DNA of 64,000 nt from positions 62,001 to 126,000 of the forward strand of contig JAHYJR010000003.1 in NCBI GenBank assembly GCA_019429005.1. The letters are read 5' to 3'. The notes beneath the pieces were generated by a model, which did no database searches, was not told the origin of the DNA, and saw only the letters and a list, made by a program, of their open reading frames with translations. How positions within the stretch are numbered: position 1 is the stretch's first letter; each line of letters starts with the position of its first letter. The stretch is from Nanobdellati archaeon (GTDB taxonomy: Archaea > EX4484-52 > GLR71). A program made the translations under genes and the position numbers. This document shows, piece after piece, positions 23,418 to 34,347 of the stretch.

Positions 23418-23566
23418 GGTTCTAAATTATAAAGAATAAATATTTAATTCAAACAATATCTCATTTTAGATTCACTTTTCCTTAAATAAATAGAACTCAG
23501 ATAAACCAAACAATTTATAAAGAAATATAGATATAATGAATATTCCACAAAAAATAAGTGATATCA

Positions 23567-24100
23567 ATGGTAAAAATAAAAGGACATGAAATTAATCCGG
23601 TACTTACTAAAGTAGCATTTAATCGTAAAGCTTTACAATTCAAGAATGATCTAATTTCAATCTTAAAAGAAATTGGTGTTGATGAGTACGACATAAAAAT
23701 ACCTCTAGAAGCAATCGCAATAAAAAATGTAAAAGCATCTGCAACTTGGTATGTTGATAACCATAGAATGCATTATAGTTATAATTTACAAAATAAATTT
23801 GTAGATAACCTATATGTTGTATTGAAAGTTATACAACTTGAAACAAAACAGGTTCTTTCTAAAGAAAAAACAATTAACGAATTTGTTTCAGCATTCAAAG
23901 AAGACAAAGATGTTGATAAAAAACGAATCGAAGCAAGGAAACATCTAGGCCTCGAACATGATGAAACTGATTTTAACGTAATAAATAAAAAATACAAAGA
24001 CATGGCAAGAGTATTACATCCAGATATGCCAACAGGAGATATCGAAAAATTCAAAGATTTAAATGAAGCACATAAAACTCTGAAACGTGAATTAAGTTAA
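23567..24100 (+). CDS. J-domain (DnaJ-like) co-chaperone with novel N-terminal domain
   Basis: 177 residues. The C-terminal third is a J domain with the HPD motif at about residues 151-153 (YKDMARVLHPDMPTGD), preceded by helix II and followed by FKDLNEAHKTLKRE. Residues 1-110 form a separate alpha/beta domain (ATWYVDNHRMHYSYN) that I do not recognise. It should stimulate a DnaK/Hsp70 ATPase, with the N-terminal domain probably choosing the client. The ATG at 23567 is preceded by AAGTGAT; the in-frame GTG at 23558 is part of that site. Confidence 0.85.
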   Translation: MVKIKGHEINPVLTKVAFNRKALQFKNDLISILKEIGVDEYDIKIPLEAIAIKNVKASATWYVDNHRMHYSYNLQNKFVDNLYVVLKVIQLETKQVLSKEKTINEFVSAFKEDKDVDKKRIEARKHLGLEHDETDFNVINKKYKDMARVLHPDMPTGDIEKFKDLNEAHKTLKRELS

Positions 24101-24319
24101 AAACGTCTTTTCATTAATAGAATATAACAACCAATAATGAAAAGTCTTAATTTTTGGAATACATAAAACATAATTTTTGAAAGTATCCAAAATGGTATAC
24201 AACCAAAGAGAATATCTTATAAATTAAATATAACTTTTTTTGAAAAAATATAAAACATATGATACAAATAGTATCGGAAGTGATTCTTAGGGAACAACAA
24301 AAAAATAAAAGAAAATAAA

Positions 24320-24682
24320 ATGAATGCAATTTATACAGCGTCAGATATAAATCTAAAAGATATAAAAGAACTTTTTAATTATAATATAATATCTTTTAAA
24401 AGAACAACAATCATATATAAAATAGTCGAAAACAGCTACCTATTTATCTATAAATTAGGTTCTGTTATATTTTACAATGTAGATAAAAACACACAAGAGA
24501 TGATAATTAAAAAAATTAAATCAAAAATAGATACAAAAAATATTATTGATACATATTTCTATGAGACCTATAACCTATATGAAGATAAATCCTTAAAATC
24601 AAATCATATAATAGAATTCAATAGCACAAATCTTAAGAACATAAACTTTGAAAATATCAATATATTAAGCATGATTCTTGCA
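24320..24682 (+). pseudogene. 5' fragment of a DUF155 (RMD1/Sif2-type) gene
   Basis: The first 121 codons of this frame match the N-terminal part of the DUF155 family: TASDINLKDIKELF, then YLFIYKLGSVIFYN, a helix and NINILSMILA. In the family the frame would go on as MILAQSVAL and another 100 or more residues including two C-terminal helices. Here it runs at 24673-24682 into reverse-strand ribosomal protein sequence, after which the frame is meaningless up to its stop at 24838. The start is intact and could still be translated. Confidence 0.75.
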
Positions 24683-24981
24683 ATTTTATCAACAGCAAGG
24701 AATCTTTCAACAACTTCTTTAGCAACAATACCTTTGATTTCTTTACCCCTTGGTTCAAGTGTATCTTGTAATAATATAGCTGTATTTTCTGCAAATTTTA
24801 TCCTGATTCCATTAGATCTTCTATATTCTGCTCTTTGAGTAACTATAACAGCTTTAACAATTTCATATGCAATTTTTTGGTTTCCTTTTTTTACAGCACA
24901 GACTACAACATCACCAACACCTGCTTTAGGTTGTCTTCCACGTACACCTCTATAACCTCTAACAGATATGATTTCTAGCAT
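24673..24981 (-). pseudogene. Ribosomal protein uL14 (L14p) fragment, antisense insertion, N-terminus missing
   Basis: About 103 of the usual 132 or so codons of archaeal uL14 are preserved without a stop: LEIISVRGYRGVRGR, KAGVGDVVVCAVKKG, IVKAVIVTQRAEYRR, IKFAENTAIL, LEPRGKEIKG, VAKEVVERF and DKIARI. The first 30 or so codons, including ADNTGAK, are missing, and the end fuses to DUF155 sequence. A functional rpl14 must exist elsewhere, so this is a displaced copy or an assembly chimera. The intact frame argues for a recent event. Confidence 0.85.
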
Positions 24982-25671
24982 TCCATCAGGAAATTTTGGA
25001 GATATGATGGGGACAATATTAACAAAAGAAATGGGATTACCTATTAAAAAAATCATTTGTGGCGTGAATGAGAATACAGAATTTCCACATTTCATAAACA
25101 CGGAAAAATATGTTGTTTCACAGTCAAAAAATACACCTTCATCTGCAATGGATGTTTCACACCCAAGTAATTTGGCAAGATTAATTGAATTTTATGGTGG
25201 CTATATGTTTGATGAGAAAGATCCACAAACAAATAATATTATAAAACAAGAAATAATTGATAAAATGCCAAATTTAGAAACAATGAAAAAAGATATATAT
25301 TCAATTGGAATTACAAATCCTAAACATTATGAAACCATGAAAAAAGTATTTTATAAATACAACATAATCCTAGATTCTCATGGTGCTGTCGGATGGGACG
25401 CTCTTGAATATTACTTAGAAAATAAACATAACCAACTTTCAATAATTTATGAGACACAAAACCCTGAAAATTTCCAAACGCTGTTAAAAAAGCAATTGGA
25501 ATCACACCAGAAATCCCTAATAGGATGAAAGAACAAACAAAATCAAATGAAATATTTAATTCAATCCATAGCAGTCCATATAAGACTGAACAGGGTTTAA
25601 AATTAAGTAATTCTCAAATAACTAAAGCTAAATCAAAGATTAAAGATTTGTTTATAACAGTAATTATTTGA
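24982..25671 (+). pseudogene. Threonine synthase (thrC) 3' fragment with frameshift
   Basis: Sequence begins abruptly at SIPSGNFGD, the middle of pyridoxal-phosphate enzyme threonine synthase, and continues with KKIICGVNEN, SSAMDVSHPSNLARL and LDSHGAVGWDALEYY, all typical of the C-terminal half. The N-terminal half with the PLP lysine is absent. At about 25465-25475 (gaaaatttcc) the frame shifts by one base. In the first frame it ends at 25528, whereas the other frame resumes the family sequence (FPNAVKKAIGITPEIPNRM) and runs to TGA at 25671. It is therefore 5'-truncated and frameshifted, and cannot be active. Confidence 0.85.
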
Positions 25672-25893
25672 GAAACAACTGATTTAATCTTTCCAGAATA
25701 TATTAAAAGAATTCGTTAATTTTTATCAACAATTGCAACAGTTATTGGTTTTATAGAACCCTAAGCAATTAATTGTCTCATTATTTTTTTATTTGGATAA
25801 ATCATAATAATAATTAACTTCAATCATTAAAATAGTCTAAGTTTATAACCCAATTATCAAAAAAATATATACTTTAAACGTTAATATAAAATT

Positions 25894-26343
25894 ATGAAGA
25901 TTAATTTTATTTATTCACAAGTCTATTTTAGAAGTCTCAATCAACACAAGTCTGTAAAAAGAACATGGGATGAAGTCAAAAAAATAGGTACACAATTTGA
26001 AATAAAATATAAAACTGAAATAAATAAAATTATTGATATAATCCCAAAAGTCACAAAGAAACCTTGGAGAAAAGAAAATACAGACATATATATTATCGAT
26101 TGGGTCGGTCCTAGTTTTTCTCACCCCCTCACATTAAAAGTTAGAAATGACTTACTCCTTATGCTTGTAATATTAACTCATGAACTGTTACATGACTTTT
26201 ACTTAAATGAAAAAGACATAGAACACATCGAGGAAACAATCAACAAAAATGTTGAAAATGTATTTAAAGAATTAAATATTGATGTTAAAGAACAACTACA
26301 TATTCTACAAAGTTTTCACGAGAAACGATTTGGAAAAAAATGA
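25894..26343 (+). CDS. Putative zinc metallopeptidase-like protein (HELLH)
   Basis: 149 residues with a gluzincin-like HExxH motif, ILTHELLHDFYL (His about 106 and 110), inside a predicted helix, followed by an acidic helix EKDIEHIEETI that could give the third ligand. No signal peptide. The preceding TATA box (aaatatatac, 25863-25872) fits a leaderless start at 25894. Substrate and family name are not known to me; the motif alone is suggestive. Confidence 0.7.
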   Translation: MKINFIYSQVYFRSLNQHKSVKRTWDEVKKIGTQFEIKYKTEINKIIDIIPKVTKKPWRKENTDIYIIDWVGPSFSHPLTLKVRNDLLLMLVILTHELLHDFYLNEKDIEHIEETINKNVENVFKELNIDVKEQLHILQSFHEKRFGKK

Positions 26344-26428
26344 AAAAAATAACTGATCTGATTCATAAACAACCAAATCAAACCAGATTCAAAATAAAAA
26401 ATCTCTAACTATTCTCAGTCTTCCCAAC

Positions 26429-27862
26429 CTATTTGATTTCCTTTTCCTTACCTGAAAAAAACGTAATTGCCTCAGCAAGTTCAGGATGTTTTTTTGAATA
26501 TTTAACAAGTTCAATACCCTTAAGATACGCATCACATGCTTGAACTAACGCACGAGCTCCAGCCTTTGTACCACTCGGATGTGCATGACACCCAGCACCC
26601 ATGGTAGTTATAAAATCTACACCGCCAATTGCATCAATAAATGGTTTTAATAGTACGGGATTAAGACCGCCTGATACAATAGGACAACATTTTTTCAAAC
26701 CTCTCCAACTATCATCAGATAATATAACATGGTGTGCAACATCTTCATGAACAAGTCTCAAAACATCTTCATCATTTTCAGGAACGTTTGCCCAGGACTG
26801 ACTAAAGAAATGCCCTTGTGCTGATAGATTCAATATATTATGTGCTGCAGTAATATCCTCTTTTTTATCACCCTTCATCTTTCCGATACCAGCCGTACCT
26901 GTATGAATTCCTGATGCACCAGCCAAACGCGCAAACTTAGACAAGACTAAAACTGAAAAACCGAATGGGCTTTCAGGCCGTGTAAATGCACCATGGGCAG
27001 CTCTATGGAAATGCAAAAACACACCAGGATACCGTCTCCTTAAAGTCTGCACAGCCATCCAACCTGCAGTAATACCATCAATCAAAAAAGCATAACTTCC
27101 AGATTCAAAACCAGCATTACGAATCAATTCACAACGCTCAATCATTGTATCAAAATCGGATGCAGATACATTAAAAGAATGCACTTTTTTCCGCCCAGTC
27201 TCTTTTACAGCCTTATCCATAGCTTCCTTAACATGCCGGACCATCTTATCATAAGGACAAAAATCTTGATTTGCTTGAGGTTCATCATTTTTTACAAAAT
27301 CGCCACCACCAACCCAGAAATCATAGCAGACTTCTGCATATTCGGCTGATGTAAGCCCCATCTTAGGTTTTACAATAGTCCCTAATATTGGTCTATCATA
27401 TACATCAAGATATTTTCGCATATCATCAATAGTATAACTAGGACCATCATATTGTTCAAGCATAGCTGGAGGGAACCAAAGGTCAAGTAACTTAAGAGCA
27501 TCAACCTGTTTCATTCCAAGAACATTACCAACAACATATGTCAATATGTTCTGAATATTACCCATACGATCAAAAAGTCTCCATGGATATGCAATCCACA
27601 CAAGATTTTGTTTCAAGTCAACCTTATAGACAAGTGCATTCATCTCCCTTGAAAAAGGAGTTTCAGTAGTAACTTTAAAATTGGTTCCAGTTGATGACTC
27701 TGCCGCGATTTCAGCAGCAGCTTGAAGCGTATTTAAACCATCACCAGGAATAAAATGAAAAACACATAAAAGATATTCTCCATTACGTGGATTAGATAAA
27801 TCCAGATTAACATAAGCCGCTTGTTTTGAGTTCAATGATTTCAAATATTTCTTCAATGTCAT
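26429..27862 (-). CDS. rbcL: Ribulose-1,5-bisphosphate carboxylase/oxygenase large subunit, form II/III-like
   Basis: 477 residues. Active-site motifs are complete: K165 and K167 in GTIVKPKMG, carbamylated K191 with D193 and E194 in GGDFVKNDEP, HFHRAAHGAF, SGIHTGTAGIGKM (loop 6 region) and SGGLNP. A long stretch between GHFFSQSW and SGGLNP (with WANVPENDEDV and DDSWRGLKKC) resembles the insertion of form II/III enzymes of DPANN archaea and CPR bacteria. Such enzymes act in AMP salvage, turning ribulose bisphosphate from nucleotides into 3-phosphoglycerate. The partner genes (AMP phosphorylase, ribose-1,5-bisphosphate isomerase) are not in the window. The ATG at 27862 is preferred over the TTG at 27880. 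Confidence 0.95.
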   Translation of the reverse strand: MTLKKYLKSLNSKQAAYVNLDLSNPRNGEYLLCVFHFIPGDGLNTLQAAAEIAAESSTGTNFKVTTETPFSREMNALVYKVDLKQNLVWIAYPWRLFDRMGNIQNILTYVVGNVLGMKQVDALKLLDLWFPPAMLEQYDGPSYTIDDMRKYLDVYDRPILGTIVKPKMGLTSAEYAEVCYDFWVGGGDFVKNDEPQANQDFCPYDKMVRHVKEAMDKAVKETGRKKVHSFNVSASDFDTMIERCELIRNAGFESGSYAFLIDGITAGWMAVQTLRRRYPGVFLHFHRAAHGAFTRPESPFGFSVLVLSKFARLAGASGIHTGTAGIGKMKGDKKEDITAAHNILNLSAQGHFFSQSWANVPENDEDVLRLVHEDVAHHVILSDDSWRGLKKCCPIVSGGLNPVLLKPFIDAIGGVDFITTMGAGCHAHPSGTKAGARALVQACDAYLKGIELVKYSKKHPELAEAITFFSGKEKEIK

Positions 27863-27891
27863 TTTAAAGCACCATTTCAAGTTTTAAAAAT

Positions 27892-28464: not shown

Positions 28465-28479
28465 AATATTATACTAAAT

Positions 28480-28596
28480 ATTCCTTTTTATTAAACTATT
28501 TATAACAAAATAAACAGTATTCCTTTTTATTAAACTATTTATAACAAAATAAACAGTATTCCTTTTTATTAAACTATTTATAACAAAATAAACAGA
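28480..28596. repeat. 39-bp tandem repeat, three near-identical copies
   Basis: Copies at 28480-28518, 28519-28557 and 28558-28596 begin ATTCCTTTTTATTAAAC and end AAATAAACAGT. Only the last two bases of the third copy differ, so amplification is recent. Each unit contains TATTTATAAC, TATA-like on both strands. It lies between the degraded gene and the arsR operon. Confidence 0.9.
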
Positions 28597-28657
28597 ATTT
28601 ATAAAAAATAATTAATTCTAACAACCCATCTAAAAAGAAAAATTTATAAATATCAAA

Positions 28658-33481: not shown

Positions 33482-34347
33482 ATGAATCCAGATATAATCA
33501 TATCTAATCCAAAAAAACTTGAAATTCTTAAAAATAAAATAGCTTTAGATGGAATAAAAAACATACATATTATCTCTGATTTTGACAGAACCTTTACAAA
33601 AGCATTTGTTAATAGACAAAAAGTACCGTCTATGATTTCAGAATTACCTAATGGAAATTACTTAACAGACGATTATGCAAAAAAAGCTCATGCACTTTTC
33701 AATAAATACCATCCTATTGAAATAGATATAAACATAACCGAAGAAAACAAAAAAAAGCTATGCATACTTGGTGGACTGAACATTTCAACCTTCTTATTGA
33801 ATCTAAACTAAACAAAAAAGATCTTGATAAAGTAATAACCTCCGAAAATATCTGTCTTAGAGATGGCTCATATGAATTCATAAAAACCTTACATACAAAT
33901 AATATACCGCTTATCATCATGTCTTCAAACGGTCTTGGTGGCGATACAATTTCAATGTTTCTTGAAAAAGAAAAAAGATTATATAATAATATTCACATAA
34001 TATCAAACACATACATATGGGATAAAGATGGATTTGCTATTGATATAAAAAAAACAATAATACATGTTGCAAACAAAGATGAAACCTCAATAAAAGATTA
34101 TCCTGTTTTTAATAAAATAAAAGCAAGAAAAAATGTTATCCTTATTGAAGATTCCCTAACAGATGTTGATATGGTTAAAGGCTTTGATTATGACAATATT
34201 ATAAAAATAGGATTTATAAATGACAATATAGAAAAACATCTTGATTCGTACAAAAAAACTTTTGATGTTGTAATACTAAATGATTCAGATATGAGTTATA
34301 TAAATCAATTATTAGATTATATAATAAACAACAAAAAAGTCAAATAA
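33482..34347 (+). pseudogene. Pyrimidine 5'-nucleotidase (UMPH-1/cN-III-like), split by a frameshift at an A8 run
   Basis: Two frames make one HAD enzyme. 33482 onward: HIISDFDRTFTKAF (motif I, D-x-D), then PIEID and EENKKK. The run of eight A at about 33748-33757 shifts the frame; one extra A would join EENKKKAM directly to MHTWWTEHFNLL, a motif of UMPH-1, and continue through LIIMSSNGLGG (motif II) and VILIEDSLTDVDMV (motif IV). The first frame instead stops at 33811. This may be an authentic mutation, a sequencing error in the homopolymer, or slippage that restores the protein. Apart from this point the gene looks intact. Confidence 0.8.

Follow-up and report, generated by a model that had tools for sequence, protein, structure and literature searches.

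A mosaic of gene fragments with a copied piece of rpl14 in a Nanobdellati archaeon, probably the relic of a composite insertion

The stretch of DNA analysed here (the window) comprises 64,000 nucleotides of a 143,923 bp contig (C8) from a Nanobdellati archaeon, whose 1.08 Mb genome is split into 15 contigs. An intact DnaJ-like gene (23558 to 24100, plus strand), conserved in the family with 65-73% identity, forms the left flank of the locus. The right flank is the gene of the RuBisCO large subunit (26429 to 27880, minus strand), which is 89-90% identical to the sister genus. Between them lies a 2.3-kb insertion relative to the sister-genus genomes (24104 to 26428), the limits of which are the ends of the homology to relatives: DNA homology ends at 24103 and restarts at about 26453. 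In the sister-genus genome G002 the slot is empty, with a gap of about 40 bp between the DnaJ-like gene and RuBisCO, and in a second sister genome, G007, a single different gene of 203 amino acids is found there (L148 2552-3163), so that the gene content of the slot varies. Since the flanking genes are found together in the sister genomes, the contig is collinear at this locus. Elsewhere in the window, the spacer upstream of RuBisCO contains a 43-bp direct repeat (28479-28521 and 28557-28599, 98% identical), and two overlapping frames of 109 and 195 amino acids at 33482-34347 resemble, judged by eye only, one frameshifted gene of a HAD-type hydrolase.

The insertion contains three gene pieces joined to a mosaic and, to the right of them, a 149-aa ORF with an HExxH-like motif (HELLH; 25894 to 26343, plus strand), for which no relative was detected among the 40 genomes searched. 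A preliminary description, made from the letters of the window, had named the three pieces as parts of a DUF155 gene, of the ribosomal protein uL14 and of threonine synthase. The latter two names are confirmed by profile searches, whereas DUF155 is only probable.

The left part of the mosaic (24320 to 24670, plus strand) is the truncated 5' head of what is probably a DUF155 (RMND1/Sif2/Mrx10-like) gene, as suggested by a match to the DUF155 Pfam profile with an E-value of about 1e-3 (9e-4, 19.8 bits, positions 1-81 of 174). This is below the Pfam gathering score of 27 bits, but a truncated gene could score equally low. Out of six residue-shuffled controls of the head, four gave no match and two gave E-values of 0.1 or worse. 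Searches of 33 relatives of the phylum, viral contigs, thrC loci and the PDB turned up nothing related to the head, and DUF155 was not found beside thrC in any locus examined. The single-sequence AlphaFold model of the head has a mean pLDDT of 46.

The middle part (24671 to 24982, minus strand) is a 312 bp copy of codons 31-133 of rpl14, with matches to the uL14 Pfam family (E=3e-23) and to TIGR03673 uL14_arch (E=1e-33, model positions 27-130). It lies in a minus-strand frame that is open over 165 amino acids (24604-25101). The reported antisense stretch of about 103 uL14 codons, which lacks the N-terminus and contains no stop, is indeed present. The native rpl14 gene is intact and located on another contig, inside a standard ribosomal-protein operon (G000:C13:17413-17820), which supports the earlier reading of the fragment as a displaced copy. 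Copy and native gene are 97.8% identical, while the best rpl14 of any relative is about 74% identical to the copy. A direct base comparison over the whole block gave seven substitutions and no indels. Four of these are non-synonymous (G128D, P125L, V71I and H69Y) and three synonymous; five of the seven are GC to AT. Two of the four alter residues that hardly vary among relatives, H69 and G128. In a functional uL14 of another strain, at least four non-synonymous changes out of seven would be expected with P of about 0.02 at an assumed dN/dS of 0.05, or 0.11 at a dN/dS of 0.1. This favours relaxed constraint on the copy. The lack of a stop had been taken as a sign of a recent event, but seven random substitutions would leave the copy free of stops with P=0.71, and the missing stop is therefore uninformative.

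The right part (24968 to 25668, plus strand) is a pseudogene of the 3' half of thrC, the threonine synthase gene, at most 63% identical to its best homologues and with a match to TIGR00260 (E=2e-17). The alignment begins at residue 264 of a 487-residue homologue, so that the PLP-binding N-terminal half is missing. The match to homologues runs in frame 3 from about 24965-24968, then changes to frame 2 and ends at a stop near 25668, which agrees with the one-base frameshift described before. We place this frameshift at about 25463-25475, where the sequence CCTGAAAATTTCC is one A short of the expected P-E-K-F-P; the base may truly have been deleted or its absence may reflect a homopolymer error. 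With the N-terminal half absent and the frame broken, the tail does not have the make-up of a functional threonine synthase gene. The genome yielded no other thrC, and neither did the eight relatives of the family. The best thrC homologues, with about 60-63% identity, occur here and there among DPANN archaea and bacteria, which suggests that thrC has spread horizontally.

As the whole mosaic lies inside an insertion that is absent from the sister genus, the DUF155-like head, thrC and the 149-aa ORF are foreign to this spot there, and none of the relatives carries intact DUF155 and thrC at the locus. The sister genus may instead have lost these genes. Against such a loss stands the wider absence of all three, namely of the head from the 33 phylum relatives, of the ORF from the 40 genomes and of thrC from the eight family relatives.

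The two junctions of the mosaic differ in how clearly they point to short shared sequences. At junction 1 (24671 to 24682, ATGATTCTTGCA) the bases said to be shared by DUF155 and uL14 are present and identical to the end of native uL14, with the uL14 identity starting at 24671. They possibly also encode M-I-L-A of DUF155, although the continuation of the DUF155 similarity to 24682 adds just 1.5 bits (from 17.6 to 19.1), and the sharing can be proposed only weakly. At junction 2 (24967 to 24982, ATGATTTCTAGCATT), an overlap that the preliminary description did not contain, the bases are near-common to the uL14 antisense strand and the thrC motif MIxSIP. The parental sequences are ATGATTTCAAGCATT in the uL14 antisense strand and ATGATTGCAAGCATT in the thrC homologues, that is ATGATT-TCAAGCATT in uL14 versus ATGATT-GCAAGCATT in the thrC homologues. 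Around the seam, the uL14 antisense strand reads GATATGATTTCAAGCATT followed by TTTGC, the window reads GATATGATTTCTAGCATT followed by CCATC, and thrC homologues typically read ATGATTGCAAGCATTCC (L041). By comparing these three, the seam is placed inside bases that are nearly shared by both parents, where the length of the overlap is deduced from thrC homologues of 40-63% identity. Among random position pairs in the window, a fraction of 7.5e-5 share 14 bp or more with no more than two mismatches, a figure that serves as an estimate because homologues stand in for the true thrC parent. On this comparison of sequences, microhomology is better supported at junction 2 than at junction 1, and the proposed joining by microhomology is plausible.

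The mosaic could be an artefact, in which the assembly or the library joined reads of unrelated loci, an alternative that the preliminary description had left standing. The division of the genome into 15 contigs and the position of the thrC frameshift within consecutive A bases, a frequent site of sequencing errors, would fit such a chimera. However, the flanks occur together in two sister genomes, and a chimera would need several mis-joins that led back to the right neighbour. Moreover, the uL14 copy deviates by 2.2% from the sole native copy, with non-synonymous changes at conserved sites that are unlike those expected in a functional uL14. The collinear contig, which is the chief argument, and the decay of the copy make a chimera very unlikely. 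The junctions are very probably real. The undamaged native donor implies that the uL14 piece is not an excised one: it was either copied or derived from a different chromosome copy or a different cell. Related genomes share the flanking genes (G002 and G007); no relative shares the uL14 fragment.

Another explanation is that a mobile element or virus brought the mosaic ready-made. DUF155, thrC and the 149-aa ORF are all absent from the sister genus and the slot of G007 is occupied by another gene, both of which would be consistent with this. On the other hand, apart from weak A+T-rich matches no terminal inverted repeats were found near its two ends, and the insertion had no match in plasmid and phage collections. 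Furthermore, the uL14 piece originates from the own or a very close species, which requires a capture within the lineage. We regard the arrival of a ready-made mosaic as improbable.

It is more improbable still that the antisense uL14 frame at 24604-25101, or its RNA, acts as a regulator of rpl14 or as a fused protein. The frame is open over its 165 amino acids and an RNA from the plus strand would be antisense to about 312 nt of the rpl14 mRNA. Yet this openness is expected by chance, non-synonymous changes have altered conserved residues, the start codon and the first 30 codons are missing, as a functional uL14 gene would not allow, and the fragment is found in no relative. The locus of the mosaic probably has no function.

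The explanation we favour, and consider probable, is that the mosaic is a dead composite insertion, in which a copied piece of rpl14 was joined as filler through short matches and is now decaying. A broken end or a stalled fork in the DUF155 part would have annealed to rpl14 via about 10 bases, and 312 bases of rpl14 would then have been copied from the annealed end. The new end would have annealed to thrC via about 15 bases in the MIxSIP motif, which thrC would share by chance with antisense rpl14. The whole route would amount to microhomology-mediated template switching. What the data show are the pieces, the intact donor and its degree of identity to the copy, the nearly common bases at junction 2, the flanks as neighbours in relatives, and the decay; that the filler was copied, in which order things happened and which enzymes acted are parts of this explanation that we infer. 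Alternatively, end joining could have captured a fragment of rpl14 from another chromosome copy or from a lysed sibling. Considering the intact donor, the inverted insert and the short shared bounds together, template-switch copying fits best and is the most likely route, with capture by end joining as a near alternative.

A variant that is compatible with the composite insertion assumes two events, in which intact genes were inserted and a later deletion was healed by the rpl14 filler. The remains of thrC and DUF155 share one strand and both break off at the filler, a layout that a filled deletion between neighbouring genes would produce. However, DUF155 never adjoins thrC in the loci examined, and here the two-event course looks the same as a single event. 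We consider it a serious possibility, at slightly less than even chances.

Besides the mosaic, we looked at displaced fragments in the genome. In 188 kb of the genome's sequence, no dispersed duplication other than the uL14 copy exceeds both 95% identity and 100 bp, so such events are either rare or quickly erased. A 0.9-kb tandem duplication is located at G000:C13:939-1829 and 2040-2930, with 90% identity. A query with the ribosomal operon against the genome detected a second displaced piece, an intergenic fragment of rps4e (eS4) at G000:C11:162439-162896 (L136 5440-5897). Its alignment score is 93, whereas 300 dinucleotide shuffles reached no more than 41, and it is heavily decayed, with stops in its frames. 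This much older eS4 relic hints that displacement of a fragment happened more than once. Taking uL14 and eS4 together, one could speculate that the copying of ribosomal-protein operon fragments into breaks, by microhomology template switching, is a recurrent process in this archaeal lineage, which we hold to be doubtful. If true, the repeated copying would have recorded such repair naturally, in organisms for which it is unstudied. A natural copied filler with an intact donor means that the signature of joining can be read from genome sequences even of archaea that are not in culture; how frequent such joins are could be gauged by searching systematically for core genes of single copy with displaced fragments.

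Sulfolobus and Haloferax are archaea with known microhomology-mediated end joining (PMC12019639, PMC8708640), and one review of archaeal alternative end joining names Haloferax volcanii and Sulfolobus islandicus only (PMC8708640). The replicative primase of Saccharolobus islandicus, PriSL, anneals strands by very short matches, which was proposed to be a widely used archaeal pathway (PMC12019639). Like this primase-dependent pathway, which the conservation of PriS and PriL may make a widespread one (PMC12019639), the mosaic has joins at short shared sequences. The Saccharolobus cases are laboratory-induced breaks with mostly small indels and deletions, whereas the mosaic is a natural join with a 312-bp filler copied from a distant locus. 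With its intact donor, inverted piece and short matches at a seam, it resembles the templated insertions and the microhomology-mediated break-induced replication of eukaryotes (PMC2621351), although, unlike these, the archaeal mosaic is known as a relic only. It also resembles ordinary prokaryotic pseudogene clusters, in which truncated, frameshifted and horizontally distributed genes occupy a slot of variable content, but it differs from them in containing a piece of a ribosomal gene that is essential and present as a single copy in its own genome.
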